From IMG/VR virus record IMGVR_UViG_3300035698_015022, positions 1 through 42,993 of that record: a stretch of DNA of 42,993 nt; one strand, given 5' to 3'. Both the position numbers and the translations under genes were made by a program. This DNA comes from a virus. Each line of letters opens with the position of its first letter. Position 1 is the stretch's first letter. Shown piece after piece: positions 826-25,978 of this stretch. The notes under the pieces were generated by a model that saw only the letters and a list, made by a program, of their open reading frames with translations, did no database searches and was not told where the DNA came from.

Positions 826-2133
826 TTAAGTTTTAACTTCTTTTTTTTCTAACACATCTATTTTCTCTAAAAGCTCTTTTTGACCTTTAATTAACATACC
901 GATAATCGGTTTTAAATCTATATGCTTCTCTGCATTTTTTCTCCTTTCAACTATAAACTCCTTCGGAAAGGCCTTAGTGTCAAAGCAGAGAACATCATTC
1001 ACCGTTGTAGCCTTCTTTATCTTTTTTAACTGGGTAAGCCCTGATTCAAATGTCGGGATTGGAGAGGCATCGTTTCTTTCATCATACCAACAGAGGTCTG
1101 CCCACGCCGCATCTCCACGACGAACCCTCACAGTATCATCAGTGGTGTAATAATACATCTGCCCGACATACAGATTCGTTGTAGGAAAACCGTTACTATT
1201 CCAAAGCCGCATTCTTGTTAAAAACTTTGTCTGATATGAATATGTGTCTATCAATTCAGTTGTGCCACCATAAATACTACCTGTTATGTAAAGATTCCTC
1301 CATCCAATACCAGAAATACCTAAGTCGAGAGTAGCATTTGCGCTTGGAACAAAATGCACATACGAAGCATTCACCAATTCTAAAGAAGCAAAACGGAGAT
1401 TGCCATTGTGATAATTGTAAACTCCTGTCTCAGAGTAAAATTTAATCGTTGCACTGTCAGCAGTAAGTTCAATCCCTGTAGTTCCAACCACAAGCAGAGT
1501 GCCTGTCCCATTATCTACAAGATAACTTTTAAGACTATCTGCGGCGTTCCACCAAGTCAGAAATGAAGCATATCCGCCAACAGTTGCTATTTCGAGTCGC
1601 GCATTTCCTGTTGTAGCAGTCCTGTATTTTCTTCCTGTTATTATTCCAGCAGTAATATAATCACCAGACAAAGTAGATCCGGCCCCCATTGTTATTGCCC
1701 CACTGATTATTGCTCCAGCGGCAGTTAAAACTCCTGCCTGTGTGATTGTAACAGCTGGTGCTCCTGTTGGCCCAGCTGTAAAAGCTGTAGCCCCACTTGA
1801 TAAGATAGTAGTATTTCCTCCTGCCGTAGCAGACAACGAGGTTGCCCCAATAGTCCAGCCTCCAATAGTCCCTGCGGTTGCTGTGATAGTTCCTGCAATG
1901 TTAGCGCCAGTTGCAGCCAATATCCCCAAAGGCGTAACCCTGAAAGAAGCATTGGCAAAAACAGCAGCGCCAAGCCATATCCCATTTTTATCAGCTTTAA
2001 ATACAGTATCTCCAGAACCTATGGCCAACTCTTTTAATTTTTTTAAATGAGCAAACCCCATCCTCTCTTGGGCTTGAGCTTGCAATATATCGTATTTTTC
2101 ATCAAATAAAGGTTTTCCTTCTATTAAAATCAC
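826..2133 (-). CDS. tail fibre or spike-like protein
   Basis: 435 residues. An N-terminal helical segment (about 1-40) is followed by a Gly/Ala/Thr-rich beta-repeat region (about 45-170). Its TITATAGTIGGWTIG-type repeats are common in phage tail fibres. Residues 170-350 look like a beta-structured distal domain. The C-terminal 80 residues become charged and helical (ERRKNAEKHIDLKP, then a Leu/Glu/Lys coiled coil), which resembles a trimerisation or chaperone-type tail end, although no S74 peptidase motif can be read with certainty. It lacks a signal peptide, unlike several neighbours. The start overlaps the stop of the upstream hub candidate by four bases. The likely role is host recognition on the virion. 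Confidence 0.7.
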   Translation of the reverse strand: MILIEGKPLFDEKYDILQAQAQERMGFAHLKKLKELAIGSGDTVFKADKNGIWLGAAVFANASFRVTPLGILAATGANIAGTITATAGTIGGWTIGATSLSATAGGNTTILSSGATAFTAGPTGAPAVTITQAGVLTAAGAIISGAITMGAGSTLSGDYITAGIITGRKYRTATTGNARLEIATVGGYASFLTWWNAADSLKSYLVDNGTGTLLVVGTTGIELTADSATIKFYSETGVYNYHNGNLRFASLELVNASYVHFVPSANATLDLGISGIGWRNLYITGSIYGGTTELIDTYSYQTKFLTRMRLWNSNGFPTTNLYVGQMYYYTTDDTVRVRRGDAAWADLCWYDERNDASPIPTFESGLTQLKKIKKATTVNDVLCFDTKAFPKEFIVERRKNAEKHIDLKPIIGMLIKGQKELLEKIDVLEKKEVKT

Positions 2134-3575
2134 GATTGTCTTTTTACATTATCTCCATAACCAAAATTCTCTACTTCCGGAGCATCATTTGAATTTACAG
2201 TAAAGTCAATTCTTATTTGAAGCGCGGCAACCTCGGGGATGGTCCCTTCTGTAGTTTTTACCTGCATCAGCTTTGTATCATCAACAACAGTTACCGCATC
2301 GGAAAAAGATGCCTCATGTTTCTTTTTATACTTAAACCCAATCGCTGTGCTCGCTGGCAGGCTCACATAATCTGCGAAGAAATCCGAAGCGGTCTTTAGA
2401 AAGGATCTGGCACCTGCCTCTGTCAGGACCATTGTCTCAATGTAAGCAGAGGCGTATTTAGCGCTCCAGTTTAGCTTATCTACCCCAACCGAAGTAGCAC
2501 TTTCCCACGAAACAAGTAAATCCGCTCCTACGGCCAACACAGCCCCTATAACAACACTTGAAAGACCTGCCGACACCGGATAGGATAAATCAAGAACCTT
2601 TAGATAATCTTTAGAGTAAGAACCTAAGCTATAAACTCCTTGTTCTGTTGGGTTGCCTGCGCCATTTGAGAACCCAAATACTGGGATTGTCAATAGAGTA
2701 GAAACTGCTTGAGGGTAAACCTCACCATATTTTTCAGGACTCCATTCACCGGGTATCCTTTTATCAGGAACTAATCTTACTCCATCATAAAAGTAGATCC
2801 TGCCATATTTCCCTGCCTGGGCATATACATAATTGTCATCTCTAATAAAAGCGTTGATCCCATTTTCTTCGATGGAATCTGAGGTCTGCCAACTCTCGTC
2901 ATCATAGGTATCCCAACGTATTATTTCAGTTTTATTGACATGATCATCAATGTAGGTGCCAATAAGAAGGTCAATATCAAACTCAATCATTGTCTTTATC
3001 CTATATGGTGTTCTTAAATCCAGAGCATTTGCAGTAAATTGGTGGCCGGTATCTTCATAAACCTTAGCAACATAATTAGCATCTCCTATAAAGAGCCTTA
3101 ATCCTCGCACTACCATTGGATGAAACTCTGCATCTTTATTTGTAAAGGTAGCCCAATCCTCTTCTGCGTTAGTAGTCCAATGTGCCAGAGTAGCGATATC
3201 TGCTATTGGTATTCTATGAAGGCTTTCTGCGGTAGCCCAGTAAATATACCCATCATATTCGGCTGCTCCTAAGCAACCATCAGCTCCGGTGGCAACAGTT
3301 GTATGAACCAAAAGCCAGGTGCCTGTTGTTGACCTTCTCCATATCTTTCCAGTCGTGTAGGAGAACCAAAATGTTTCTCCGCTTGATACTGCAAGGCGCA
3401 CTCTACACAAAGCATCTACGGTTGATCCGCTCTCTTTTGCTAATGCCTGGTGGATTTTAATAAGGCCGGGAGTGCTATGAACATCTATCCCGACCATTTT
3501 AGCCACGCTTCCCAGTATCCCTGAAAACTTACTATCGGCTAAACCTTTTAAACCTTGTGGAAATAATACAGGCAT
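2130..3575 (-). CDS. tail hub or nozzle candidate, beta-propeller-like
   Basis: 481 residues. Repeated Tyr/Trp-rich strands of the type DGYIYWATAESLHRIP, GLRLFIGDANYVAKVYE and DNYVYAQAGKYGRIYFYDG at about residues 105-270 look like blades of a beta-propeller. A more immunoglobulin-like C-terminal part with VENFGYGDN closes the protein. P22 gp10 (a tail accessory factor of similar length) and the T7 nozzle gp12 have comparable architecture, so I suggest a tail nozzle or hub. This rests on fold-like pattern, length and position next to fibre genes. No signal peptide is visible. It overlaps both neighbours by one to four bases, showing tight translational coupling. Confidence 0.5.
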   Translation of the reverse strand: MPVLFPQGLKGLADSKFSGILGSVAKMVGIDVHSTPGLIKIHQALAKESGSTVDALCRVRLAVSSGETFWFSYTTGKIWRRSTTGTWLLVHTTVATGADGCLGAAEYDGYIYWATAESLHRIPIADIATLAHWTTNAEEDWATFTNKDAEFHPMVVRGLRLFIGDANYVAKVYEDTGHQFTANALDLRTPYRIKTMIEFDIDLLIGTYIDDHVNKTEIIRWDTYDDESWQTSDSIEENGINAFIRDDNYVYAQAGKYGRIYFYDGVRLVPDKRIPGEWSPEKYGEVYPQAVSTLLTIPVFGFSNGAGNPTEQGVYSLGSYSKDYLKVLDLSYPVSAGLSSVVIGAVLAVGADLLVSWESATSVGVDKLNWSAKYASAYIETMVLTEAGARSFLKTASDFFADYVSLPASTAIGFKYKKKHEASFSDAVTVVDDTKLMQVKTTEGTIPEVAALQIRIDFTVNSNDAPEVENFGYGDNVKRQS

Positions 3576-3829
3576 TATTTTTTCTCTTTATTTTCTTTTT
3601 TCTTTTTAACTTTTAATAAAGTAATTGTCTGCTTTCCATCGCTAATATCAAATGGTTTTCCTTTATGGGCTAAATCCATAAGATGATTCATTAATTCCCC
3701 AGCTCCTAATTGAGCGCCCTTTTGTGTTATTTCTCCTTTGATCCTTTTATAGGCCTGCCAAATATTATAGATAACAAGAGCCACAACAACGATTGGTATT
3801 AAAAGTTCACTAATTAAGTTAGTCATCAT
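3575..3829 (-). CDS. small single-pass membrane protein
   Basis: 84 residues. A hydrophobic N-terminal helix (LISELLIPIVVVALVIYNIW, about 5-24) is followed by a basic stretch, a Gly/Leu helical segment and a Lys/Glu-rich tail. It overlaps the preceding small exported protein by four bases and ends at the first base of the hub candidate's start. The family is not recognised. The topology would fit a spanin-like, holin-like or anchoring role, but nothing in the sequence decides between these. Confidence 0.65.
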   Translation of the reverse strand: MMTNLISELLIPIVVVALVIYNIWQAYKRIKGEITQKGAQLGAGELMNHLMDLAHKGKPFDISDGKQTITLLKVKKKKENKEKK

Positions 3830-4068
3830 AATTGTTTTTTAATTAAAATATTTATCCCTCCTCCAAACTCTATTCCCCCAAAACCTACTTCTAAATCCTC
3901 TAACACTTCAGCCTGCTCCGCCGTTATACAGATCTCCTCCTGTTGTTTTGTGATAATCACATAATCACATTCGGGCCTTCCCATCTCGGCCCCAATATAA
4001 ACGCTTCCTCCAAGAAGGAGAGCTATTATTGCTGCTTTTAGCTTTTTTAATATTTCTTTTATTTGCAT
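3826..4068 (-). CDS. small exported or membrane-anchored protein
   Basis: 80 residues. The basic N-terminus is followed by a hydrophobic segment with small residues (KAAIIALLLGGSVYIGAEMG, about 11-30), then an acidic domain with two cysteines (GRPECDY and EEICITAEQAE). The C-terminus is Gly-rich. This is a signal-peptide or signal-anchor pattern. The start lies inside the 3' end of the beta-helix gene (10-base overlap). Function unknown. It is one of five consecutive exported-looking products, interrupted only by two small virion-type genes. Confidence 0.6.
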   Translation of the reverse strand: MQIKEILKKLKAAIIALLLGGSVYIGAEMGRPECDYVIITKQQEEICITAEQAEVLEDLEVGFGGIEFGGGINILIKKQL

Positions 4069-5405
4069 GTTGCTGGTTTAGTTGTTGTAGCTGTTAATGC
4101 TCCATTTAAAGCAGTGACATATGTTAGTCCTCCCCCATCACTGTCTCCCATTACCAGACAGCCAGAATCATCTGCGTCTCCTATATAAACAGTGGTTGAA
4201 GCAGTATCGTCTAAAACATTCAAATCTTCAAAAGTAGCAATAGGAGCAACAAATTCTCCCGTATCTGCACGAAAGTAGAATACAACAGTATTTGACCCAT
4301 CTCCCCTCAATATAGAGAAATAAACAGCGCCAGTAGTATTACAACTTCTAAATAATCTAATCTGTGCTGTGCTTGACGCATCGCCAGGCATAGCATCTAA
4401 ATTTCCTATAATGTTTCCGCTTGTGTTTGTCCATTTCAAGTATTTATTCGCAGTCATCTCTATATGATCTCCTATCTTTGTTATTGGAGTTGTATGATTC
4501 AAGAACGAAACAAAGGTTTCTGTGCCACTGTCTGTTAAAAATGTAGTTGTGTAACTGCTGCCATTCCCTTTTATGACATTGTATTGTCCAGAATTTATTA
4601 CTACTCCCTTATCAAGAAGTTCTAACCAACCATCAAATTCATTCGTATCTCCTGTAATGTTCACCCCAGTAGCGCTTGTTGCGCTCTCTATGGCAAGATT
4701 TTTTGCTGTATTCCTATTCCCTGTCATTATTAAACCAGTGCTACTTGCGTGATTATAAGGATAAATTCTTCCTCCAATAATATGATTAAAATTGTGGGCA
4801 ATGTTTATTGAAGTTGCGCAATCATAAATATATGGATTATAAACAGTGTTATAAAGAATAGCGGTTTGGAGAAGCATTCCCGTATCAAATTTCTCCATCA
4901 CTGGATTTTCAATTGTTGAATACAGGTTTCTATACCAGTGAATCCCAATGCCTTGACGTGTAGTTGTCTGCTTGAAATGAGGATTAACAATCCTAACATT
5001 TAATAAATTGCCCCCTGCTGAAGTTTTTAAGAAGGCTGCATCAAAATCTCCTTGGATTATCGCACCCTTATCAAAAATTAAATCCGTATAAGAAACCTTT
5101 ATGAAAATAGTTGTTGCAATATTGTAAGTTCCTCTTTTTATATAAACAGTTCCTCCCTCAGCAGGCAAAGAGTCAATAGCCGCCTGTATCTGAACATCAT
5201 CAGCAGTTCCGTTACAAACGTAATCTCCTACTTTACCCGAGGGAGCAACAGTTACAACGGGAAGCAGATCCGTAATATACTCATGATAAATAATATCTCC
5301 CTCTCCTAAATCACTGATCTGTTGTAAAGTATAGGCACCACTAACTCCTGCAACTAAGAAAAGAATAATTAATCCGGGGAATAAGTATCTTAATGTTTTT
5401 TTCAT
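4059..5405 (-). CDS. exported right-handed beta-helix (pectate-lyase-like) protein
   Basis: 448 residues. Residues 1-24 form a clean signal peptide: KK, a hydrophobic core LFPGLIILFLVAGV, then SGA before Tyr. Residues 55-110 match the entry into pectate-lyase/tailspike beta-helices (ADDVQIQAAIDSLPAEGGTV, then IKRGTY), followed by many short Asn/Gly/Ile rungs to about residue 290. The last 130 residues form a different beta domain. Such helices bind or cleave polysaccharides in phage tailspikes, but a cleavable signal peptide is unexpected for a virion protein. No catalytic residues can be assigned by eye. Confidence 0.7.
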   Translation of the reverse strand: MKKTLRYLFPGLIILFLVAGVSGAYTLQQISDLGEGDIIYHEYITDLLPVVTVAPSGKVGDYVCNGTADDVQIQAAIDSLPAEGGTVYIKRGTYNIATTIFIKVSYTDLIFDKGAIIQGDFDAAFLKTSAGGNLLNVRIVNPHFKQTTTRQGIGIHWYRNLYSTIENPVMEKFDTGMLLQTAILYNTVYNPYIYDCATSINIAHNFNHIIGGRIYPYNHASSTGLIMTGNRNTAKNLAIESATSATGVNITGDTNEFDGWLELLDKGVVINSGQYNVIKGNGSSYTTTFLTDSGTETFVSFLNHTTPITKIGDHIEMTANKYLKWTNTSGNIIGNLDAMPGDASSTAQIRLFRSCNTTGAVYFSILRGDGSNTVVFYFRADTGEFVAPIATFEDLNVLDDTASTTVYIGDADDSGCLVMGDSDGGGLTYVTALNGALTATTTKPATCK

Positions 5406-5406
5406 A

Positions 5407-5577
5407 TTAAGGTTTAGTTTGTTTTGTAAAAGTGGTTGCTGGCTTAATCTGTTTTGTGGGATTAGCTATCGGTTTAGGTTGCTTCTTTTTCGTGCCAAAC
5501 TTTGCTTTTCCAAACTGTGCCACTCCGAATCTTGGCGATCTTGGGCTAACTGGTTTTTCTTGTTTGGTGAAAGCCAT
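5407..5577 (-). CDS. small basic protein with Phe-Gly motifs
   Basis: 56 residues from the ATG at 5577, which follows the stop of the adaptor candidate (5579) by one base (TAGAATG). An alternative start at 5598 would overlap the adaptor gene and is less attractive. The protein carries three closely spaced FG motifs (RFGVAQFGKAKFG) and a Lys/Pro/Thr-rich low-complexity tail. Similar short FG-rich proteins occur among phage structural genes, but I do not know a function. Confidence 0.5.
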   Translation of the reverse strand: MAFTKQEKPVSPRSPRFGVAQFGKAKFGTKKKQPKPIANPTKQIKPATTFTKQTKP

Positions 5578-5578
5578 T

Positions 5579-6295
5579 CTAATAATCATATCCATCATCT
5601 CCCCTGTGACTGGCAGGGGGTAATGCGCCCACTATTTCTTCATCTAAGTTGGGAATAGAGAACTCATCTAAGGTCGCCTCTAAATCTCTATCGTATTCTA
5701 AGTCTTTCCGGCTCAAAGCCATATCATTATTGTTTTTGTATTCTATTCCTACCCTTCTGGCCCAAAGTTCGTGGAACTCCCTGGGGAAACCATGAGTAGT
5801 GGTAGTAGGATCAACCGATAAATCAGCGAGTCCTTCTAAGTCCGCCAAATCAGCAGGAAAAGCATTATAAACCAATTTAAACCCATCTGTTACCTCAACA
5901 ATTGTGCCTGAAAGAATGTAGATTGCCTGTCGCCTTATAAAGTATCGCGGATCTAAATTATCAAAGTCGTTTACTATTTTGGACTCCTGAAGCACATCAG
6001 CATAATGTCTTCTGGCAAGCGGAGTAGCTATAACGTAATCTCCGGCAGCAGAGAACTTTAATTCAAGAGAAACTATATTATTTAAGACATCGCTTGGAAA
6101 AGCATACTCTCGTTGATCATCAGCCAAATCATCTAAGGAAGGGATATTCCATATCTCGGACCTTCTTTGCTGGATCTTGGAAGCAATTTCATCTTTGAAG
6201 ATATTGGCATAGACCAACATATCGGCAAGTGTAAATGTCGTGGTATTGGTCTTTGTCTTTTTGTGAACTAAAGCGGCAAGTTGTACTCCGGTCAT
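5579..6295 (-). CDS. head-tail adaptor/connector-like protein
   Basis: 238 residues, mostly helical at the N-terminus (about 20-60), with a middle segment of the type REYAFPSDVLNNIVSLELKF (about 62-81). Many phage adaptor proteins have this sort of segment, with a Tyr-Pro-Ser-Asp strand leading into a beta domain. The C-terminus is acidic. It sits among tail genes rather than directly after the capsid gene. A gp4- or T7-gp11-like adaptor role is my inference from pattern and context; alternatives include another portal-vertex protein. Confidence 0.45.
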   Translation of the reverse strand: MTGVQLAALVHKKTKTNTTTFTLADMLVYANIFKDEIASKIQQRRSEIWNIPSLDDLADDQREYAFPSDVLNNIVSLELKFSAAGDYVIATPLARRHYADVLQESKIVNDFDNLDPRYFIRRQAIYILSGTIVEVTDGFKLVYNAFPADLADLEGLADLSVDPTTTTHGFPREFHELWARRVGIEYKNNNDMALSRKDLEYDRDLEATLDEFSIPNLDEEIVGALPPASHRGDDGYDY

Positions 6296-6313
6296 TTTTA
6301 TTTATTTATTTTA

Positions 6314-7954
6314 TTAATAGTCCATTATTATTCTTCTTCCTCTCCCATAGATAAGAAGCGCATCGTTTTGAATAAGATAACAAGCATTTATCCAATACTG
6401 GTTTCTGGCTTCATTGGAAACTCTTATCTCGTCCATTTTACCATTCCAAGGATATGAGGAAAGGTTGGTTGCCATGCCAATAATAACATCGCTATTAGTA
6501 GGAGTGTTCTGCTCTTTTGCAACAGGAGTTCCAACCTGAACTCCATTTTCATAGATTGAAATGTTCGTCCCATCATAAACAAAGGCAATGTGAACCCATT
6601 GAGCAAACTTAGTAAAAGTATAGTAGGTATAACCACCATTGTAATAAAATCTAAAAGTGTCATTGTTCCAAAGGTTTATGTACAAATTCGTTCCATCTTT
6701 ATGAAGGAAAATTCGGTAAGCTGAGGTATCAAGAGCATAGAGCCAAGAAGAAATTGTAAAGTTCCCATTAAATTCTAATCCTGTTCCATTTCCAACATTT
6801 ATGTAGTCGGCATCTCCGTCAGATTCCTGCCCGTTGGATATTTTACCAACAACTTCAATTGGCTCGTCTGGCCCTTTCTTTGCTCCATCATTATCGTTAG
6901 CTGTGCTGTCGGCTATATTAGAATTATCTGGGTCATCGTGCGCATGTTGAGTCATCTTGTAACTACTATTCCAAACATTTTCAGCTATTACGTCACCAGA
7001 ATCCCCGATATAATCATCGTTATCTATATGGCCTGCATCATAATAAAGATAAAGTTCTGTGTCGGTTGAACTTGAAATGAGCCAATCTGATTTAGATACC
7101 CAAAGCCAGGACTTCTCATTAGCATCGTCCCATTCCTCTATCTCCCCATAGAGTTGAGTTTCCCCATCTGCTTTAGTAAGGGCAATCTTCTTTCTGTTAT
7201 CATTAGAGGTTAGTTCGTCAAATACAGCAGAAACATCATCAGACCTTAGACCAGAAGAAGCGCTTAAATAGACAAGCACAGGGAAATGCGTAAGATCGTC
7301 ACCTACTAAAGACGAATCAACTGTAATCTTTAATCTTTGACCCCAACCTGATAAAACTGGGTCTAAATGTCCATATCCGCCATCATCTCCTACCGCCTCT
7401 AAAAAAAACTTCTCTTTCGTCCAAAAAGGGTATTTTATAGTCATCTGCAAGTATCTTGTTTCTCCTTTGGGAACAAAATAGCTTACGCTGTTTTTAGCTA
7501 TAAAGCCCTTTTTAGATTTCTCTTTTAACCTTCCTTTAGCTAACCGATTGTCAAACCTTTCTCTATCAAACTCGCTAATCTCTATATCTTGCCACTCGTC
7601 TCCTATAATCTCTTTTGCTACTGTCATTGTCTTTGTTTCATCGGCAAAATATGCCTGAATGTCTATTGTCTGCCCTTTATTACTGTTGTTCGTAATTGAA
7701 ACATAGACAATATCTTTGCCTGGCGATCCATAAATTTCCTTGTCCGTTCTAATAATTAAATCCTCTCCAGATAAGTTGTCTGTATATGGAAACTCAATTA
7801 TCTCTCCATTAACCTCTACAGAAGGAATAGCAGTAGAATAGTTTGAGGTAGCAAAGGCAAGCACAATCACTCCTGTGGCAACTAAAAGCTGTTTCCATTT
7901 CCTCTTTGTCCACTCCCAGGCATTCTTTAGTTTTGTTTTTATTTTATCAATCAT
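6314..7954 (-). CDS. membrane-anchored DUF2341/LamG-type surface protein
   Basis: 546 residues. A basic start (KIKTKLKNAWEWTKRKWK) leads into one hydrophobic helix (QLLVATGVIVLAFATSNYST, about 22-41), giving an anchor or uncleaved signal. A beta domain at about 45-190 precedes a DUF2341-type module: LKITVDSSLVGDDLTHFPVL, then ELYLYYDAGHIDN (about 208-330). A LamG/concanavalin-like jelly roll follows (about 380-530), with the hallmarks FTISSWLYA, WVHIAFVYDG, ISIYENG and GKMDEIRVSNEAR. Both modules occur in bacterial cell-surface adhesins and bind glycans or proteins. The gene overlaps the giant gene by eight bases. Confidence 0.75.
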   Translation of the reverse strand: MIDKIKTKLKNAWEWTKRKWKQLLVATGVIVLAFATSNYSTAIPSVEVNGEIIEFPYTDNLSGEDLIIRTDKEIYGSPGKDIVYVSITNNSNKGQTIDIQAYFADETKTMTVAKEIIGDEWQDIEISEFDRERFDNRLAKGRLKEKSKKGFIAKNSVSYFVPKGETRYLQMTIKYPFWTKEKFFLEAVGDDGGYGHLDPVLSGWGQRLKITVDSSLVGDDLTHFPVLVYLSASSGLRSDDVSAVFDELTSNDNRKKIALTKADGETQLYGEIEEWDDANEKSWLWVSKSDWLISSSTDTELYLYYDAGHIDNDDYIGDSGDVIAENVWNSSYKMTQHAHDDPDNSNIADSTANDNDGAKKGPDEPIEVVGKISNGQESDGDADYINVGNGTGLEFNGNFTISSWLYALDTSAYRIFLHKDGTNLYINLWNNDTFRFYYNGGYTYYTFTKFAQWVHIAFVYDGTNISIYENGVQVGTPVAKEQNTPTNSDVIIGMATNLSSYPWNGKMDEIRVSNEARNQYWINACYLIQNDALLIYGRGRRIIMDY

Positions 7955-10900
7955 CGTAAGTATAATAGATGCAAATGCTAACCCAAGTTGGGACGTTTGT
8001 TATAGAGTCCACTACTAAATCAATTTCACTATCTGCAGCTATTGAAGCATCAGCAAAGGTAGTGGTTGACGCTTCCCCTGCTGCAGGAGCAAGAGATGCG
8101 TTCATAATGTTGCCAGGAGTTCCATCGTCTTCCTGTAAGTTGAAGGTTACTGTCTGATCTGACTCAGCCCAGATTTCTGTTATGGTAACCGCTAAAGTCG
8201 GTCTCCAAAGAGATTTCAAGTCATCTGCTGCTACTGGGTCTTCAATGTATTTACAATCGTGGTCTGAATCTGTGGTAGTTGAAACGACTCCCGAATCTGC
8301 CCTTAGAAGTCCTGTCCAAGAGGTAGGAAGGGTCAATCCCCCGACTATAGTTGTGTTCCCCGTATAATCCACTGAAAACCTTTCTGATCCTCCCACTCCA
8401 AGATTCATAAGGTCTCCTGAAGTGTTTTGAAAATCAGCAGATATTCCTGTTGCTGAAATTGCCTCTGAGTCAATCTCAAAAGCTATTCCATCACCATTCT
8501 GGTCTGATAGAAGATTACTACCTGTGCCCACATTTATAACCGCTACTACGCTTTTATTAGAACTTGATGCGTGACCTTGGTAAAAGGTTGCCAAATTAGC
8601 ATTTGTTTGGGCAACCGTTGAATATACATACAATAAATATTTGTCTCCTGCTGATTCTACAGTTTGTCTTAATCTTAAACCAAAATTAGTTGAAGCATTG
8701 CCTAAATACATTGCTTCAGGATTATTGGTTAGATCGTTTTGTGCAATTGTTAAAGGAACATAATTGTCCCCATCATCAACTGTCATTGTTAGGGCTCCTG
8801 TCATAGCATCCCCAGCGGTTAAAACAAAAGCATCATCTACATTGAAAGTAGTCCCATCCAAGGTTAAATTAGTTCCTCCTAAATATGTTGTGTTATTATC
8901 AGCCAGATATTCTGTGGAAGAAGCTATAAAAGCATTATCAATTACAGTTCCTTCCCAAACACCTGTTCCAACTATTCCGTCCTTATCAATGGCAAATTTC
9001 TCTGAACCATTTATTTCTGCCTGAAAGAAATCTCCACCAAACCCTGTTTCCATATCAGCATGGAATGCTATTGCTCCTGCATTGGCTGTATTACCAACAA
9101 TCTGTATTCCCTCCATTGCTTGGTTTGCCCCACCAACATCAATTCTTAAAAGTTTAGATGCCCCAGATTGAGTATCTGAAACCATCATAACTGTCAAAGC
9201 TGCTGTATTCACATTGTTAGCGCCAGATATTGACATCGCAGTTCCCCCTGCCGCCATTTGACGGATGTGCATTGCTGTTCCCCACGGTTGAGAATCTGCG
9301 TCCCAATCTCCTCCTTGAGCATTGTTATTTGTCAACATAATGCCAGAGTTTACGCCTGTGCCAGTATTATTACCTATTACTCCTGTCATTAGTGCCACTC
9401 CTGCGGTTGAGGATGTGTTCTCTGTATCTAAGTTTAATAAAATAAGTTCATTCGAAGTTGTATCTGTTGATAGAGTTAATCCGTCTCCTGTTGTCCCAGA
9501 TATGTCGCTTCCCCACGCCAAACTATCCGTAGTTGTTGACCAAGTTCCAGAATCCATCCTAAGCATTCCCGTCCAATCTGAAGTATCCAATCCTGTTCCG
9601 CCCCTAATATTGTCAACCGCAGTTCCTTCCCAGGTCCCAGTAGCAATAGTGCCAACCTCAGTAATAGCTGATTGTAGGAAATGTTCGTCAGCTGAAAAAT
9701 TATCTAAAGCATCGTGGTTGCAGGTAATTACTCCGTCTGAATCAATGGTGCAGTCATTGCTCATAGCCACTCCTACAGGATCATCTGAAACATTGCCGAC
9801 ATAAATATAATTATCTGTTAAGACCATATCAGTTAGTTCGTCCCAATCGGCACTAACTCCTATATCATCAGCAAATTCGCTTAAATTAGAATAAGTTGTA
9901 TCAGCCAGATATTCTGTGGAAGAGGCAATAAATCCGTTTGCTATTGCCGTGCCTTCCCAGATACCAGTTTCAATTGTTCCAAGCGTAATAATTGTAGTTG
10001 TCCCAGTATTTGCCTCTAAAGCCATAGTTCCAAGCTCTAAACTCGTTCTGCCCGTAGCAGCTACGAGATTATCAGATGTCCCCGTCCAGTAAATGTCCGC
10101 CAAGAACTCTGTTGAGGAAGCTATTGTCGTAACAATGCTCGTAGTCCCTGATCCTGTGACTCCTCCCGTTAAGGTTATGCTCTCGTTCCCAGTTAGAAAA
10201 GTATCATCCAAAGAACAACCTTGATCAGTCCCATCACAAGAAAAATCTCCAAAATCAGTATTTGATAGTTCGTCTTCTGAGATGTCTGCACCAAAGTCGT
10301 TGTCTAAGTTAATTGTAAATCCAGACAAGGTTAAACCAGTGCCGGCCACTAAATCAGTTGATGTCCCAATCTCCCAGGTAGCCCCTGTGGTGGCGTAGGA
10401 GCTATCATTTGTCCATAATGAGATATTTCCCCCTGCGGTAGTTAAGGTCCCAACTGTGTCTATCGTGGTTGTTCCTGTGTTAGCTTCTAAGGCCATTGTC
10501 CCTAACTCAAGAGATGTTCTTCCTGTGGCTGCTACTAAGTTTGTCGAAGTGCCAGTCCAGAAAATATCAGTGTTTGTATCAATCAAGTATTCAGTTGAGG
10601 AAGCTATAAAAGCATCAGCTATTACTGTGCCTTCCCAGGTTCCAGTTGCTATTGTCCCAATAGAAGTTAAAGACGAGAGAGTGGCTACGGTATTATCTAT
10701 AAATCCTTGCCCAGACCAGTCTCCCCAGCCAAAGGCGGTATTCCAGTCAGTTGTTGAGGCGTCAGTCGGGATATTATATCCAGCCGTCAAGGTTAAAGCT
10801 AAGGTTCCAGAAGTTGTAATTGGATTATCACCGATAGTCAATCCCGTAGGCACCGACATATCTACCGAAGTCACTGTGCCACTTCCAACCGTAGTAGTTG

Positions 10901-13900
10901 AAACAACTCCCGAATCTGCTCGTAAAACACCCGTCAGTCCAGTGTCTATTGTCAAAGCTCCAGTAATTCCTACTGTTGAATCAAACTGAACAGCGTCCTC
11001 CTCGTTTATTAAGGTTTTATTTGCCACTATGTTATTAAGTTCAGTAAAAGTGTTAATAGATGAACTTGCCAGTAAAATCTCGTCTGTCACCCACGCCTGT
11101 AATTCTGAAAAAGTATTTATGTCCTCATCTTGCATATAAGCAGAAAGAGCAGCCGTGGTAATAAAAGTTGAAGTAGTATTATCATATTGAGAAAGGTCAT
11201 CGGTAACTACAAAATCCATATCGTCAGTGCCATCTTGGTATGTCACCGTAATTAAAGTATGAGTTCCTGTGGTAGTGGCTACCATTGTTCCAGCAAAATC
11301 CTCTACCTGTTCTTGGGTTAAGGTAGCCCCTGCATCAGAATTACAAACTAAATCTGTGCCATCAAAAAGGCAGAACTTTCCAGTAGTCATAGTCCCCTCC
11401 TTTATTGAGAATACTTCGCTTGTTAAATCCAATAGGGTTCCAGTAGCAGAATAGGTTGTGTCGGTGTCTGCCAAATACTCTGTTGAAGAAGCAAGGTAGG
11501 CATCAGCCAATGCTGTGTCTAAGGTCAAAGAAGTAGCGTCTATCGCTCCTGCAGAGGTTACTGTAAATTGGTCAGCGTTTCCTACTGTTAATAATTGAGA
11601 AGGACTCGTCGTCCCGATGCCGACGAGGCCGGCATTCATAACTAACGTGTTATCGTAAAGAGTATTGGATTCTCTGGTATTAAATGCAAAATATCCGTCA
11701 GAGTCCCATTTGAAGTTTCCATAATTTTGAGCATCATTACCTACTCGCAATATAACGTCACCAGAATCACTTTGAACGTGTAATTTTGTACCCGGCCCCG
11801 TTGTCCCTATCCCGACGTTGCCGCTTACGGTTAAATCCGAACTTAAAGTTGTTGTAGCCGCAAAACTATGGAGTCCTGTCCAGTCAAAAGCATCTCCTTC
11901 GCTTAATTCTTCATTTGAAATAGAGTCATTAGGCACAGTAATTCCAGTCGTAAAAGTTGGAGAAGTGCCGAATACCATTTTTCCAGTTCCTGTTTCATCA
12001 TCAACTAAATCTAACCAAGCCAAAGAAGTTGTTGCTTCTAAAGTAAATACTGTTCCATTCAGAACCACAGGATTGAGCGCTGTATATGTAGTATTATCGT
12101 CTGCTTCGCAAGCCAAATCATCTCCGCTAAGATAATAATGATTTCCTGCGGCACAAGCGGTTGAGAAAAGTATATCTTCTTCATCTACTGAGTCATTTGG
12201 AATTGTCAAACCACCTACGATTGTAGTGGTGGCTAAAGTAGAAGCTCCAGTAACAGTTAGAACTGAAGTAGTAGCAGTCCCTATCCCAGTTATATTATAA
12301 CCTCCAACATCCCAGTTGCCAGTTAAGGCCCTTGAACCTGCAGCTAATAAGTATTGAGTGTGGTCATCGTCATCAAGTCCTCCAAGCGAACCGTGGTCTG
12401 ATACAGATGTTCCAACAAAGAAAGTATCACTCACCATTTGGATTGTTGGAAAACTTCCACCCGCTTGTGGAGCAACTATCTTTCCTATTAAAAGTCCAAA
12501 ATCTGTTAAGTGGTCTGGTTTTGTTGGTTCTGTTGCGGTTTCAGCATCTCCTAACGCAGAAGTAGTTTCTCCATATCTTACATAAACATCATTATCATCT
12601 GCGTGTTTATAAACCCAAAATGTTCCATATCTATTATTTCCAACATTGCCAAGAGTTCCATCTCCGTCATCATAATGGGCATAATCAATTACAGTGCTTG
12701 TCGCTGATTCTGTCCAGCCACCACTACCATCTCTATAAACAGGAATAAACCCAGTCGTACTGTTGTAGGAATCTATAACGACTCTGTTTATCCCAGCATA
12801 AGCAATCCCAGCTGTCATTGTAAAATTATTAGTCCCAGAATAAGCAATAGTTGAACCACTCTCCAATTCTATGGCTCTCAATTCTCCTGCCCTTAAATGA
12901 AGTCCAAAAAATCCATCCTGAAACTTGAATCCCCCGTTAATATAATGAACATTATCAGAAGTATCTTTCCTTACTTTACCAAGAGATATACTTGTTCTGA
13001 CGGCGATATAAGGATTTGACTCATTAAGAGAAATTGTTGGCGAACCGCCATTGTAATTCAAAGATATAAAATAAGTTGTGCTTGAGGCAGTTATCGCTTC
13101 ATTGTCTTGTTCTGCTAAGGTCACATAAGCCAAAGTCCCAGTAACCGAGTCAGTAGTTCTCATTAGAGCAGTCAAAGCCCCAACCTTATAAGTCCCGGCA
13201 TTAGTTCCCTCGGTAATCACTCCTCCAGTTAAAATCATTGGAGAGAGCGGTTGATCAATAAAATATGATTTGTCAGGCATATCATCTAAACTCACTTGGC
13301 TGGCACCTGTTCCCCAGTCAATCATAGTGTCATGGACAGTATCTGCCCCTATCGTAGTTGTGATTGAAGTAGTCCCAGAACCCGAGACATCTCCTGATAG
13401 GGTTATTGTTTCGTTTCCTGTTAAATAGCCAGAATCATTAGTCCATAAAGAAATATTTCCGACTGCCGAACTTAGATAAGATATAGTTGTAGTTGCAAGA
13501 GTAGATGTTCCCTCAACCGTTAATGCTCCAGTCATCGTGTCTCCAGCAGTTAAAACATAAGAATCGGTAGCAATCTGGTAATAAGAACTTGAAGCAGCTA
13601 ACCATACTGGGTCAGATTCTGTAGTTAAAAAACTATCAGCCGAATTAAGATTTCCTGTAATAGTTAAATCTCCTGAAGAAACATCCATCCAGAACTCGGC
13701 AGTAGATGTAGCATCAGAACCCAACGCCAAATCAGAAGCAGTATCTGTTAAATAACTAAATCCTGTTGAGGTTGAGAATAAACCACCGTTTCCACCAGCA
13801 GGAGTAGAAGTTCCCCAAACTCCATTTGTAATATATGTATATCCAGTCCAGTCAGATGTGTCTTGTCCTGTGCCTCCCTGCGTCGGAAAAAGTTTAGTAG

Positions 13901-13985
13901 CTCCTATCACCGTTAAAGGGATAAATAAGATAATAAGAATAAATAAGACAACTTGTTTTGCTATTCTTCTTATATGTTTTTTCAT
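7947..13985 (-). CDS. giant repetitive adhesin/fibre-like protein with signal peptide
   Basis: 2012 residues, Ser/Thr/Gly-rich. Residues 1-30 are a strong signal peptide (basic HIRRIAKQ, hydrophobic VVLFILIILFIPLTVI, GAT). The rest is an array of short beta repeats. Units include FIASSTEYLAD-like (at least five), GTMALEANTGTTTI (twice, about residues 1160 and 1315), NISLWTNDSGYLT-like, and GIGTTGPGTKLHV/GIGTTSPSQLLTV near residues 720-800. The last ~105 residues form a separate beta-sandwich-like domain ending in ICIYYTYDD. The GIGTTSP and ASTLATTTI idioms are, from memory, common in predicted surface proteins of Patescibacteria. It could be a tail fibre or a surface protein made during infection; the signal peptide favours export. 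Confidence 0.7.
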   Translation of the reverse strand: MKKHIRRIAKQVVLFILIILFIPLTVIGATKLFPTQGGTGQDTSDWTGYTYITNGVWGTSTPAGGNGGLFSTSTGFSYLTDTASDLALGSDATSTAEFWMDVSSGDLTITGNLNSADSFLTTESDPVWLAASSSYYQIATDSYVLTAGDTMTGALTVEGTSTLATTTISYLSSAVGNISLWTNDSGYLTGNETITLSGDVSGSGTTSITTTIGADTVHDTMIDWGTGASQVSLDDMPDKSYFIDQPLSPMILTGGVITEGTNAGTYKVGALTALMRTTDSVTGTLAYVTLAEQDNEAITASSTTYFISLNYNGGSPTISLNESNPYIAVRTSISLGKVRKDTSDNVHYINGGFKFQDGFFGLHLRAGELRAIELESGSTIAYSGTNNFTMTAGIAYAGINRVVIDSYNSTTGFIPVYRDGSGGWTESATSTVIDYAHYDDGDGTLGNVGNNRYGTFWVYKHADDNDVYVRYGETTSALGDAETATEPTKPDHLTDFGLLIGKIVAPQAGGSFPTIQMVSDTFFVGTSVSDHGSLGGLDDDDHTQYLLAAGSRALTGNWDVGGYNITGIGTATTSVLTVTGASTLATTTIVGGLTIPNDSVDEEDILFSTACAAGNHYYLSGDDLACEADDNTTYTALNPVVLNGTVFTLEATTSLAWLDLVDDETGTGKMVFGTSPTFTTGITVPNDSISNEELSEGDAFDWTGLHSFAATTTLSSDLTVSGNVGIGTTGPGTKLHVQSDSGDVILRVGNDAQNYGNFKWDSDGYFAFNTRESNTLYDNTLVMNAGLVGIGTTSPSQLLTVGNADQFTVTSAGAIDATSLTLDTALADAYLASSTEYLADTDTTYSATGTLLDLTSEVFSIKEGTMTTGKFCLFDGTDLVCNSDAGATLTQEQVEDFAGTMVATTTGTHTLITVTYQDGTDDMDFVVTDDLSQYDNTTSTFITTAALSAYMQDEDINTFSELQAWVTDEILLASSSINTFTELNNIVANKTLINEEDAVQFDSTVGITGALTIDTGLTGVLRADSGVVSTTTVGSGTVTSVDMSVPTGLTIGDNPITTSGTLALTLTAGYNIPTDASTTDWNTAFGWGDWSGQGFIDNTVATLSSLTSIGTIATGTWEGTVIADAFIASSTEYLIDTNTDIFWTGTSTNLVAATGRTSLELGTMALEANTGTTTIDTVGTLTTAGGNISLWTNDSSYATTGATWEIGTSTDLVAGTGLTLSGFTINLDNDFGADISEDELSNTDFGDFSCDGTDQGCSLDDTFLTGNESITLTGGVTGSGTTSIVTTIASSTEFLADIYWTGTSDNLVAATGRTSLELGTMALEANTGTTTIITLGTIETGIWEGTAIANGFIASSTEYLADTTYSNLSEFADDIGVSADWDELTDMVLTDNYIYVGNVSDDPVGVAMSNDCTIDSDGVITCNHDALDNFSADEHFLQSAITEVGTIATGTWEGTAVDNIRGGTGLDTSDWTGMLRMDSGTWSTTTDSLAWGSDISGTTGDGLTLSTDTTSNELILLNLDTENTSSTAGVALMTGVIGNNTGTGVNSGIMLTNNNAQGGDWDADSQPWGTAMHIRQMAAGGTAMSISGANNVNTAALTVMMVSDTQSGASKLLRIDVGGANQAMEGIQIVGNTANAGAIAFHADMETGFGGDFFQAEINGSEKFAIDKDGIVGTGVWEGTVIDNAFIASSTEYLADNNTTYLGGTNLTLDGTTFNVDDAFVLTAGDAMTGALTMTVDDGDNYVPLTIAQNDLTNNPEAMYLGNASTNFGLRLRQTVESAGDKYLLYVYSTVAQTNANLATFYQGHASSSNKSVVAVINVGTGSNLLSDQNGDGIAFEIDSEAISATGISADFQNTSGDLMNLGVGGSERFSVDYTGNTTIVGGLTLPTSWTGLLRADSGVVSTTTDSDHDCKYIEDPVAADDLKSLWRPTLAVTITEIWAESDQTVTFNLQEDDGTPGNIMNASLAPAAGEASTTTFADASIAADSEIDLVVDSITNVPTWVSICIYYTYDD

Positions 13986-14347
13986 GTATAAATTATGGCT
14001 CGATGCCCACTCCCTGTGGGCGGAGCATTAACATAAGTAATTGTGGTTCCGACCAGAGTATAATCTTCTCCTCCTGGTGTTTGAAAAGCTCCATTCAAAT
14101 AAAGAGCAAAAAGATTCGCGCTTGTTATGGTAAAGATTTTATTCGCTCCATTTACCAATCCAGTAGGGATTTCAGGAGTATAAGTTCCTCCCCCTCCTGG
14201 GATCGTCTCGGTCACATCGCTTCCAACATTAGCACCTGCAACCCCGGCCCCTGCAAAATCAATAGACCGAAGATTAGTTACTATACTAACGCCTTCGTCT
14301 TTGACTGTTACAGGTCCACCCATCTCTTGCGGATTCCTAAATGACAT
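13982..14347 (-). CDS. fibre adaptor-like small structural protein
   Basis: 121 residues. The central motif VKDEGVSIVTNLRSIDFAGA followed by GVAGANVGSDVTETIPGGGG is a recurrent short module in phage fibre and baseplate-type proteins. The C-terminal half (TGLVNGANKIFTI, LFALYLNGAFQTPGGEDYTL) looks like a small beta domain seen in tail or head fibres. It lies between the coiled-coil protein and the giant gene, overlapping the latter's start by four bases. Likely structural; the exact place in the particle is unknown. Confidence 0.6.
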   Translation of the reverse strand: MSFRNPQEMGGPVTVKDEGVSIVTNLRSIDFAGAGVAGANVGSDVTETIPGGGGTYTPEIPTGLVNGANKIFTITSANLFALYLNGAFQTPGGEDYTLVGTTITYVNAPPTGSGHRAIIYT

Positions 14348-15943: not shown

Positions 15944-16969
15944 TTAGGATTCTGCTCCAGCGGCAGCTTCTGAAATGAAGTAGTTTGAACCCTCGGTAGC
16001 ATGTCCTGGCCATCCGTGGTGGTTTCCAGAGGTAAAGTCAGTGCCTAATAACTTAACAGTATTCGCACAGGCGAAAAAGTTATTCATTACAGACATCACT
16101 CCGGTAGAACCGGCTACATTGTAGATAGCATAGGCAAATGCATGGCTTGTTCTGTCTCCGAAGTAATTATCGTAAATCATTGCGCCGATTGCTGAGTTAG
16201 CCGCGCCATAAGCATAAATACCATAGCCACCATTGTCAGCTAAAACAGTATTCCTTCTTATAACAGTACTTTCGTTTGAGGCATTACCTGGTCCCATAAA
16301 GATAGCTGCCAGAGTTTGTCGTTCAAAAACATTATCTTCGACAATAACTCCAAGCCTTGAACCATCTAAATAGACACCGTACTGTCCTTCCGATCCACCT
16401 CTAAAGAAGTTGTGGTGAACCCAGCAACCAGTTGCATTGGCTGTCGTTTCCCCAGAAGAAGTGCTATATAATCCGCCACCAACATAGACTCCTGAATATC
16501 CACCACCGCCATCAAACATAAACCCAGTGATTTCTACCCCACCAGAAAGAACTGTAAATCCAGCCCCCTGACTTCCAGCTAATCCCAAAGGCCCAATAGG
16601 ATATTTGGTAGTAGCGTCAGACATTCTAATTCTTGCTCCATAATCTGCTTGAGCGCCACCTGGACCCATAATCTTTAGTCCATCTTGATCGTCAGCAACA
16701 AGAACATTCTCGGTCCACTTTCCTCTTCCTACAACAACCATATCTCCAACATCATCTCTACCCTGATCAACTGCTGATTGAATAGTCGTATAAACTGCCT
16801 CCACCCCGTCTTCATAAGCAGGATGTTCTGCTGCAAATTGAGTATAGTTAGGAGCATCTGACTTCATAGCCCAATATACTCTTCCAAGTAATTTAGCATC
16901 TCTAATAAACTCAGGATCAAGCATTTGGTGTCGAACTGCTCGCGATAAACCATCAGAAAATTTACTCAT
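15944..16969 (-). CDS. right-handed beta-helix virion protein
   Basis: 341 residues from the ATG at 16969; a longer frame from TTG at 16984 adds five residues and has no advantage. The N-terminal ~60 residues (FSDGLSRAVRHQMLDPEFIRDAKLLGRVYWA) are helical and resemble a capsid- or tail-attachment segment. From about residue 60 onward the sequence shows a beta-helix: TTIQSAVDQG, VVVGRGKWTENV, then repeated Gly/Asn/Val rungs such as GVYVGGG, NATGCWVHHNFFRGG, VIVEDNVFERQ and VIRRNTV. There is no signal peptide, in contrast to the helix protein at 4059. It could be a head fibre or spike. Confidence 0.7.
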   Translation of the reverse strand: MSKFSDGLSRAVRHQMLDPEFIRDAKLLGRVYWAMKSDAPNYTQFAAEHPAYEDGVEAVYTTIQSAVDQGRDDVGDMVVVGRGKWTENVLVADDQDGLKIMGPGGAQADYGARIRMSDATTKYPIGPLGLAGSQGAGFTVLSGGVEITGFMFDGGGGYSGVYVGGGLYSTSSGETTANATGCWVHHNFFRGGSEGQYGVYLDGSRLGVIVEDNVFERQTLAAIFMGPGNASNESTVIRRNTVLADNGGYGIYAYGAANSAIGAMIYDNYFGDRTSHAFAYAIYNVAGSTGVMSVMNNFFACANTVKLLGTDFTSGNHHGWPGHATEGSNYFISEAAAGAES

Positions 16970-17046
16970 TTTAGTTTTTAACAAACATCATAGAAGAGTG
17001 TCGAATCTCTGATATTTGTTAATTAGTTGATTATCTTTCGACCTTT

Positions 17047-18610: not shown

Positions 18611-19573
18611 TTAGCTTGAAACAGCGTGTTCAATACGAAGCAAAAAGGCCTGATTCAGAATTACTGCCACAAATGTTGCTTTCCATCCGGAAGTTTGGCG
18701 CTGATTCAATGGATCTGTTGAACCACCAGAACCAAGAGCTTTGACAATGTTCTTCATTGCTTCCCCTGAAATCCTGCTGATACCATAGGCTTCAGCAGCA
18801 AGGATAAGGGTTCCATAAACATCAATGCTTCCAGCACCTGAGCCTGTAAAGACTTTGGCGTTTGTGGATTCAATGAAACGAACCTCGTCAAGTGTTCCCA
18901 CTTCACCCTCCATTGCTTTCTTCTGTCCGTATTCCTCTATCCTGATAAATCCTGGAATGTTCTTGAGATCAAAGGTGGTATTCGGATGGACAATTCCAAT
19001 AAAGCAAGATGGCAAGGGGCTGGTATTGAAACCAGTGCTGGCATCAACCATTGAGGTAATCTTCCTTGCGTTAGCACCCTTTAGGGTCCTTACGGCCTCT
19101 TGAACCTCGGTCTTGGTAATCTTCATAGCAGCACTGACCTCACCTATAGCGCCAGCGGTTGAAGGCCATTGGACACTTGTGCATGCTGCTAATATCTCCC
19201 TGGTAAGCTGGTCAAGAGTATCGCCTGCTTGGACACCAAGTATCTCTGCTGTTTCAGTTAAGACTGGATCAAGCGTGGTAAACAATAACTTGTCAGTCAA
19301 GAGAACGTAGTCACCATATTGCTCAACTGTTGCTGGCACATCGGTAATTGCTAACTGGCTGCCAACTGGGGTCACACCCTCGGTTAGAGGAGTGGTCGCA
19401 GCTGTCAATAAGGTGTATCTACGAAACTTAATGTCATCTGTGTTATTGCGAGGAATGTCTCGCACCTGTGCCCATTTCGTATGAAGAAATAAAGGCACAG
19501 CCTTCATAAGAAGTTTTCGGTCGTAAAAATTATTTACGCCCTGGGTAACTTCACCTGTGGTTGTCATCGGCAT
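18611..19573 (-). CDS. major capsid protein, N4-gp56 type
   Basis: 320 residues. The N-terminal region reads NNFYDRKLLMKAVPLFLHTK, DIPRNNTDDIKFRRYTLL, then TPLTEGVTPVGSQ and TVEQYGDYVLLTDKL. This is the signature of the N4-gp56-type HK97-fold capsid family. The ~320-residue length is normal for the group. The C-terminus (SGWKATFVAVILNQAFLLRIEH) matches the closing P-domain/A-domain strand with a charged end. It follows the scaffold-like gene, as expected. MPM at the start offers two adjacent ATG codons; no Shine-Dalgarno is visible. Confidence 0.9.
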   Translation of the reverse strand: MPMTTTGEVTQGVNNFYDRKLLMKAVPLFLHTKWAQVRDIPRNNTDDIKFRRYTLLTAATTPLTEGVTPVGSQLAITDVPATVEQYGDYVLLTDKLLFTTLDPVLTETAEILGVQAGDTLDQLTREILAACTSVQWPSTAGAIGEVSAAMKITKTEVQEAVRTLKGANARKITSMVDASTGFNTSPLPSCFIGIVHPNTTFDLKNIPGFIRIEEYGQKKAMEGEVGTLDEVRFIESTNAKVFTGSGAGSIDVYGTLILAAEAYGISRISGEAMKNIVKALGSGGSTDPLNQRQTSGWKATFVAVILNQAFLLRIEHAVSS

Positions 19574-25386: not shown

Positions 25387-25734
25387 TCATTTTTTCTCTT
25401 CCCATAATCTCTTTGATTGCTTCATACACCTTCTGCACATATACTTTGGGGTCCCGGGCAAACCTGATTGGAGTGTCCAAGCGTGAATGCCAAAGATACA
25501 AAGAATGCGCTTCCATAAAACTATAATCTTAAATATCGCTACTCTTACTATCTTGCGTAAAGTCCATTTCTGTTTGATATTTGTTGGTTCGGTCTTTACT
25601 CTTACTCCCTTCAACTTTCTTAGAGATCTTTTTATTACAGTTTTTTTCTTTAGAAATTCAATTCTTCTCTGGCGTTCATAAAGGCCTCTCCTCTTTTGTC
25701 TCTTTTGGTTGCGTAGTAATTTCTCTTTATTCAT
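25387..25734 (-). CDS. basic protein with C-terminal zinc-knuckle-like motif (DUF1660-like)
   Basis: 115 residues. The N-terminal 60 residues are extremely basic (KRQKRRGLYERQRRIEFLKK). A short hydrophobic helix (VRVAIFKIIVLWKRILCIFG) follows. The C-terminus contains Cys, His and a paired cysteine (LCIFGIHAW, then YMCRRCMKQ) spaced as in the small prophage DUF1660 family, which reads C-x-x-x-G-H-x-W ... C-x-x-C. A nucleic-acid-binding role is plausible. It overlaps the KH gene by eight bases. Confidence 0.55.
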   Translation of the reverse strand: MNKEKLLRNQKRQKRRGLYERQRRIEFLKKKTVIKRSLRKLKGVRVKTEPTNIKQKWTLRKIVRVAIFKIIVLWKRILCIFGIHAWTLQSGLPGTPKYMCRRCMKQSKRLWEEKK

Positions 25735-25978
25735 TTAGCGGTTCTTCAATTTTTAATGACACCATAACGTTGTGATTATAGCCCATCAACTTTAAAAGGA
25801 GTTTGATCGCGCTTGCATTCTTTCCTCCCTTTCCTATTACCAAGCCCATATCAGCTTTATCTACCCAAAGTTTTAAAAAGACCCCTCTCTGATCTACCTG
25901 GCGCTCTATCTTTACATCAGCCGGAGTTTTGACAATGGCTTTGATAATGGTTTCTAAAAGCTCTTGATCTTTTTCCAT
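25727..25978 (-). CDS. KH-domain RNA-binding protein, KhpA-like
   Basis: 83 residues, the length of bacterial KhpA (YlqC). The whole protein is one type II KH domain: helix LLETIIKAIVKTPADVKIE, strand GVFLKLWVD, then the GxxG loop at residues 49-52 within DMGLVIGKGGKNASAIKLLL, and the final strand NVMVSLKIEEP. KhpA proteins bind RNA and modulate translation and cell division factors in their hosts. Phage copies are unusual. The DMGxVIG and NLKI-EP-like wording recalls KhpA of Patescibacteria, from memory. It lies in the accessory block just before the packaging genes. Confidence 0.85.
   Translation of the reverse strand: MEKDQELLETIIKAIVKTPADVKIERQVDQRGVFLKLWVDKADMGLVIGKGGKNASAIKLLLKLMGYNHNVMVSLKIEEPLNE

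Follow-up and report, generated by a model that had tools for sequence, protein, structure and literature searches.

A candidate Sec-exported cassette of fibre-like and lectin-like proteins in the structural operon of an SU10-type phage

The virus record IMGVR_UViG_3300035698_015022 (window G000, that is, the whole stretch of 42,993 bases analysed here) carries, within its structural operon, genes for proteins of 2012, 546 and 80 amino acids (aa; 7947..13985, 6314..7954 and 3826..4068, respectively, all on the minus strand) that may form a Sec-exported cassette remodelling the surface of the infected cell. We put this sequence-based prediction at about even chances. A 448-aa protein resembling beta-helix tailspikes (4059..5405, minus strand; PHROG tail collar, E = 1e-6) probably belongs to the same predicted set, and the cassette genes are probably expressed late in infection. 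The initial annotation had proposed a surface-remodelling cassette of five proteins; it is supported by the recurrence of the signals as a block in other phages (L220, L217, L009, and L070) and by the match of the large pair to a chromosomal pair of surface type, whereas its 84-aa member (3575..3829, minus strand) falls outside the set.

N-termini were judged by hydrophobicity (the best 15-residue Kyte-Doolittle mean within the first 50 residues), by the charge of the n-region and by the von Heijne prokaryotic matrix, which has a usual cut-off of 3.5. The five open reading frames singled out earlier were all found in place, and four of their N-termini were of the claimed signal type (2012, 546, 448, and 80 aa) whereas that of the 84-aa protein was not. 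Hydrophobicity maxima were 3.29, 2.27, 2.45, 2.08, and 2.81 for the 2012-, 546-, 448-, 80-, and 84-aa proteins, respectively. Features of Sec export and signal peptidase I cleavage, with matrix scores above the cut-off, were found in the 448-aa protein (7.4, signal peptide residues 1-24, cleavage between ..GVSGA and YTLQ), the 546-aa protein (6.6, between ..NYSTA and IPS) and the 80-aa protein (3.8). The 2012-aa protein has the features but a low score; its predicted signal peptide (residues 1-29, 13899-13985, minus strand) has an n-region charge of +5, and both charge and h-region are textbook for a signal. Since the n-region of the 546-aa protein is unusually long, its N-terminus (residues 1-42) may be either a cleaved signal or a signal anchor. 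None of the cleavage sites predicted for the window N-termini has a lipobox cysteine. In the 84-aa protein the matrix score was -1.0, the n-region charge was -1 and positive charges follow the membrane segment, so that an N-out/C-in topology with a single transmembrane segment is predicted.

Across loci, large proteins whose N-terminus is hydrophobic (n = 30) displayed a higher mean n-region charge than 36 small membrane proteins (+2.5 vs. +0.3; p = 7e-7), together with higher cleavage-site scores (p = 0.01). A count of A-X-A motifs after the hydrophobic stretch (21 of 31 vs. 17.8 expected after shuffling) had no power and was replaced by matrix and charge. No Shine-Dalgarno motif helps to choose the starts, and the next possible starts of the 2012-, 546-, and 448-aa genes fall inside the signal or well past it. 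The structural proteins described earlier as signal-free indeed lacked a hydrophobic stretch, with maxima of 0.37, 1.26, and 0.37 for the reading frames ending at 2133, 3575, and 16984/16969, respectively. Judged by these features, the export signals look real for the 2012-, 546-, and 448-aa proteins and are probable for the 80-aa protein. Related phages, where a search for the same N-termini had been proposed earlier as a check, contain relatives of the 2012- and 546-aa proteins that also bear signals; for the 448-aa protein no relative with a signal was found.

A fibre domain of the 2012-aa protein (residues about 245-538; 12372-13253, minus strand) was found in 38 viral contigs; an alignment of it that included cultured phages was too divergent for scanning the collection. 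The N-termini of the proteins bearing this domain were bimodal, either hydrophobic (2.6-3.3) or without a hydrophobic stretch (1.6 or lower), with nothing between. When 35 fibre domains were placed in a tree, the signal label changed about six times, at least two of these changes being forced by supported branches, and one clade (L189/L191/L193/L198, support 100/100) contains both signal-bearing and signal-free members. Two otherwise near-identical phages of this clade, L191 and L193, have nine genes in common, most of them 75-95% identical, and the fibres that they encode at a shared tail locus have 85% identity across 311 residues; the protein of L193 carries a signal and that of L191 does not. 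Elsewhere, differing signals precede a common mature start: FPT..N..S.GD.I...WNA in L059, L066, and L220 (signal and mature start FPTALNSYSSGDIIKSAEWNAIE, FPAALNDFSEGDVIEEEDWNAIE, and FPTTVNTWSDGDIIESDWANALE, respectively), LFPTQGGTG in the window and L002, and SP.GG.SP.TPSA.C in L009 and L219. By these comparisons, the predicted export signals of fibre-domain proteins are not chance. A fibre-type protein and a LamG partner both carry signals in the window, L220, L070, and L009, and both lack them in L163, L168, and L191; the exact probability of this concordance, calculated by hand, is 1/35 for a set picked after looking, and for that reason we take it as a lead only.

The same L191/L193 comparison favours the main rival explanation, in which these proteins are virion fibres whose hydrophobic N-terminus, cleaved or not, adapts the fibre base, by letting the fibre mature at the membrane, by letting it join the virion at or outside the membrane, or by inserting into the membrane while DNA is ejected. 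We rank it as the main rival because some signal-bearing genes sit in the only tail-fibre slot, and the location of the window genes inside the structural operon also agrees with it. The charge and cleavage-site features are, in contrast, secretory and unlike those of a virion membrane helix, the LamG partners carry signals too, and the 2012/546 pair has chromosomal homologues; with all this considered, the virion-fibre explanation appears somewhat unlikely.

Shine-Dalgarno motifs were almost absent in the window, L003, L009, L060, L163, and L176 and strongly used in L184, L187, L189, and L191, a split among phages sharing the fibre domain or the capsid family that hints at two host types. An explanation of the signals by the host only was rejected because signal-bearing fibres span both types, being also present in the strong-motif phages L184, L187, and L189. 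Two phages whose fibres bear a signal have genes for related lipoproteins as well, at 2040-2594 in L187 (lipobox LLSGC) and at 11218-11748 in L189 (lipobox LLTGC).

The gene neighbourhood of the cassette was compared upstream of a putative tail nozzle gene without signal (2130..3575, minus strand), a family marker named from its gene position. The 80-aa protein, predicted to be exported or anchored, belongs to a two-cysteine family (PEC-YVI..EICIT..GFGG) with homologues in L216, L217, and L220, in all three immediately upstream of the nozzle. In L220 the order is adaptor, a 61-aa gene, a signal-bearing fibre (619 aa), a signal-bearing LamG protein (370 aa), a 72-aa two-cysteine protein and nozzle, and in L217 it is a GIGTT-repeat protein (a fragment), a signal-bearing protein with N-domain and LamG (called at 473 aa, or 452 aa when counted from the likely start; 30% identical to the 546-aa protein), a 108-aa gene, a 76-aa two-cysteine protein and nozzle. 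In the siphovirus-type loci L060 and L061, relatives of cassette proteins lie between capsid and connector genes or before the connector genes. As regards the 84-aa protein, 10 of 18 members of the phage family have a small transmembrane protein immediately before the nozzle gene, whether or not they carry exported fibres. The 84-aa protein was rejected as a member of the export set on its topology and because the slot is kept in phages without exported fibre; by position across the family it occupies a holin-like slot.

The 546-aa protein consists of the signal or anchor, an immunoglobulin-like N-domain (residues 47-200), a DUF2341-like region (204-342) and a LamG/ConA lectin domain (379-526). 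Of its earlier DUF2341/LamG label, LamG is clear (E = 8e-23) whereas DUF2341 stays below threshold in Pfam (E = 0.15); its AlphaFold structure was unusable (predicted local distance difference test, pLDDT, 35). A scan of viral contigs with the N-domain gave one other match, L061, L217 being added through the nozzle scan. Chromosomal homologues of about 590-740 aa, 25-32% identical to the 546-aa protein, were present in 5 of the 45 genomes from a single Patescibacteria order, with few elsewhere. In four of these five genomes a giant repeat protein is encoded immediately upstream of the homologue, as it is in the phage. The second chromosomal gene encodes a protein of N-domain, DUF2341 and LamG (about 600 aa) with an N-terminal signal. 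The giant repeat protein and this signal-bearing protein form a pair of surface type, and the pair adjoins genes resembling housekeeping lepA, gatA, and nusA (named by eye from sequence). The giants are cut by contig ends (L154, L204, L205, and L206) and, because all end there, such genes are probably often truncated in metagenome-assembled genomes (MAGs). Three of the four giant fragments have GIGTT repeats; in the 2012-aa protein, repeats of the form GNVGIGTT lie near residues 725 and 789. The C-termini differ, with a Pro/Thr-rich stalk in the chromosomal giants vs. a phage-type beta domain in the 2012-aa protein (residues 1896-2012; 7950-8300, minus strand). Given the homology to the chromosomal pair together with the phage-type fibre domain and ending, the phage pair looks chimeric, with a host surface-protein pair combined with fibre modules of phages. 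Such mosaic architecture, along with the chromosomal homologues, would also suit signals that are functionless leftovers of recombination with host surface genes. We regard this as very improbable, considering the repeated gain of signals in unrelated phages, the partner concordance, and the conservation of signal character although the letters diverge.

Several observations weigh against an exported cassette. The strongest is that in L187, L189, L193, and L198, siphovirus-type relatives, the signal-bearing gene occupies the tail-fibre slot, and wherever the contig extends further, lysis-type genes come next. By sequence and structural model, the fibre domain of the 2012-aa protein is itself phage-type: it has signal-free sequence relatives in Stenotrophomonas phage DLP_6, where the protein is annotated as a tail fibre, and in a Rhodobacteraceae phage, where it is a virion structural protein. 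This places the 2012-aa protein among proteins with a domain homologous to known fibres and speaks for the virion-fibre explanation. The model of the domain (pLDDT 65, core mostly 75-90) had BFVD neighbours that were mostly phage proteins, some named tropism-determinant, S74 or receptor-binding (E to 2e-22), and its best PDB match was the phi812 baseplate (E = 5.5e-4, low TM-score). In addition, the matrix score of the 2012-aa protein (2.7; ..VIG before ATK, or IGA before TK) is below the cut-off, no C-terminal anchor or cell-wall motif was found when looked for, and the Pro/Thr-rich stalk of the chromosomal giants is absent from this protein. Large signal-bearing proteins just upstream of the nozzle occurred in only 6 of 30 nozzle-bearing loci, these six being the window and the loci whose nozzle is at least 51% identical to that of the window. 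Finally, none of the viral contigs examined represented a phage in which one copy of the fibre domain had a signal and another lacked it, as a decoy of the phage's own receptor-binding protein might predict.

Signal-free candidates for virion fibres are also present in the window, which is consistent with the exported cassette: a 435-aa fibre-like protein, probably a virion fibre (826..2133), and a 346-aa beta-helix protein, probably a virion spike (15944..16984, ATG start at 16969), both on the minus strand.

If the exported cassette is real, host Sec machinery would export its proteins late in infection, and signal peptidase would release them, or the signal would anchor them at the surface. 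The fibre and lectin domains could then bind glycans of the infected cell envelope or of a partner cell, with the outcome that receptors would be masked against superinfecting or re-adsorbing phage, and/or that adhesion would change. Receptor masking is our first choice among these outcomes, with altered adhesion second. In a narrower version, superinfection exclusion or protection from debris, the exported fibre would mask the phage's own receptor in the manner of phage T5 Llp, which is encoded beside the T5 receptor-binding protein and blocks FhuA (PMC9586334). The fibre domain as a probable binding module and the position in the structural operon agree with that version; Llp is, however, a small lipoprotein, and no signal-free protein duplicating the fibre domain was found in the same phage, so that this narrower version taken as the whole explanation is unlikely. 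A quite improbable alternative is an adhesin or cargo of lysogenic conversion that would strengthen the episymbiotic attachment of the host. The homologous chromosomal pair fits it, and ConA-like lectin 'auxiliary genes' of Patescibacteriota phages have been proposed to alter surface adhesion, enhancing that of the host (PMC12911398), a proposal that did not consider export signals. No integrase was recognised among the window genes scanned, and the cassette, being encoded in the structural operon, is probably expressed shortly before lysis. Beyond the window, exported fibres might represent a general class in which several kinds of tailed phages repeatedly make a tail-fibre gene Sec-exported by swapping on a signal peptide, sometimes with a lectin partner and a small two-cysteine envelope protein, and so repaint the infected cell with their own binding domains; this generalisation is tentative, and we rate it below an even chance.

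The window contains an SU10-type portal gene (PF23899, E = 4e-18), an adaptor gene within the cassette and without signal (5579..6295, minus strand; PF24175, E = 2e-4, under the curated cut-off of that profile, together with synteny), a terminase gene and a major capsid gene (18611..19573, minus strand; phrog_1357, E = 4e-70). Because of these profile matches, with portal, adaptor and capsid genes in the order of SU10-type phages, we identify it as an SU10-type podovirus. Related capsid proteins, 32-80% identical to that of the window, were found in 56 viral contigs. The capsid match begins only at residue 87/88 in ten relatives (L027, L029-L034, L036, L040, and L041), and in L040 the order is N-terminal part, a homing-endonuclease-like reading frame and the remainder, which suggests that an intron or intein recurs at a single codon of the capsid gene. 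The large terminase gene is in two parts in L004, L006, and L021, the break lying near residues 236/246, with an HNH-endonuclease reading frame between the halves in L004 and L006. In the window, a 2171-aa polyvalent protein (36050-42565) with ParB-like and RadC domains belongs to a kind of protein believed to be injected along with the genome.

The likely host is a patescibacterium, from a group of very small parasitic bacteria that includes episymbionts, because the gene for an 83-aa KH protein points there (25727..25978, minus strand; KhpA, PF13083, E = 3e-17), although a phage can acquire such a gene. It matched KhpA in 176 of 192 Patescibacteria genomes (mostly 45-56% identity in the better matches, best 51-56%, E to 2e-24) whereas outside Patescibacteria 9 of 14 genomes gave matches of only 29-38% identity; a KhpA-type RNA-binding gene occurs in ten loci of this phage family, the window counted. 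Shine-Dalgarno motifs were hardly used by the window and its close relatives (1 of 27 genes vs. 1.9 expected from shuffling). The MAG bins containing related phages disagree on the host, and Bacteroidia, Rhizobiales, and Ignavibacteriae bins with related phage contigs were set aside as host evidence on account of that conflict. Next to the 2012-aa gene lies a gene for a 121-aa fibre-associated protein without signal (13982..14347, minus strand), with a 62% identical relative at the same place in L002; its stop overlaps the start of the 2012-aa gene, making translational coupling possible.

If export of the cassette is confirmed, phage fibres would have two places of action, the particle and the infected cell, with the signal peptide as the switch, and phages of episymbiotic Patescibacteria would have a testable route to change cell-surface contacts. 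For this, L191 and L193 offer a natural comparison with and without signal. Such a result would also caution against calling LamG or fibre genes parts of the virion, or metabolic cargo, from homology alone.

That phages encode adhesins and exported envelope proteins is already known. Like Llp of T5, whose gene lies beside that of the receptor-binding protein, and Cor of T1 and phi80, the proteins described here would be phage products exported to the envelope; those are small lipoproteins whereas these are large fibre and lectin proteins without lipobox. PblA and PblB of Streptococcus phage SM1 likewise serve as bacterial surface adhesins, and they reach the surface through permeabilisation by holin and lysin, without a signal peptide (PMC2920869). 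The lectins of PMC12911398 are, as here, LamG/ConA proteins encoded by phages that infect this host group; the main text of that paper does not deal with signal peptides, whereas the present analysis describes signals, partner genes and chromosomal counterparts, and such genes may be structural. The literature searched, whose coverage leaves out most subscription journals, gave no example of signal-switched, Sec-exported fibre and lectin genes within a structural operon. The chromosomal pair of Patescibacteria, in turn, has its genes and domains in the order of the phage pair, and its second gene is alike in size and in having an N-terminal signal.

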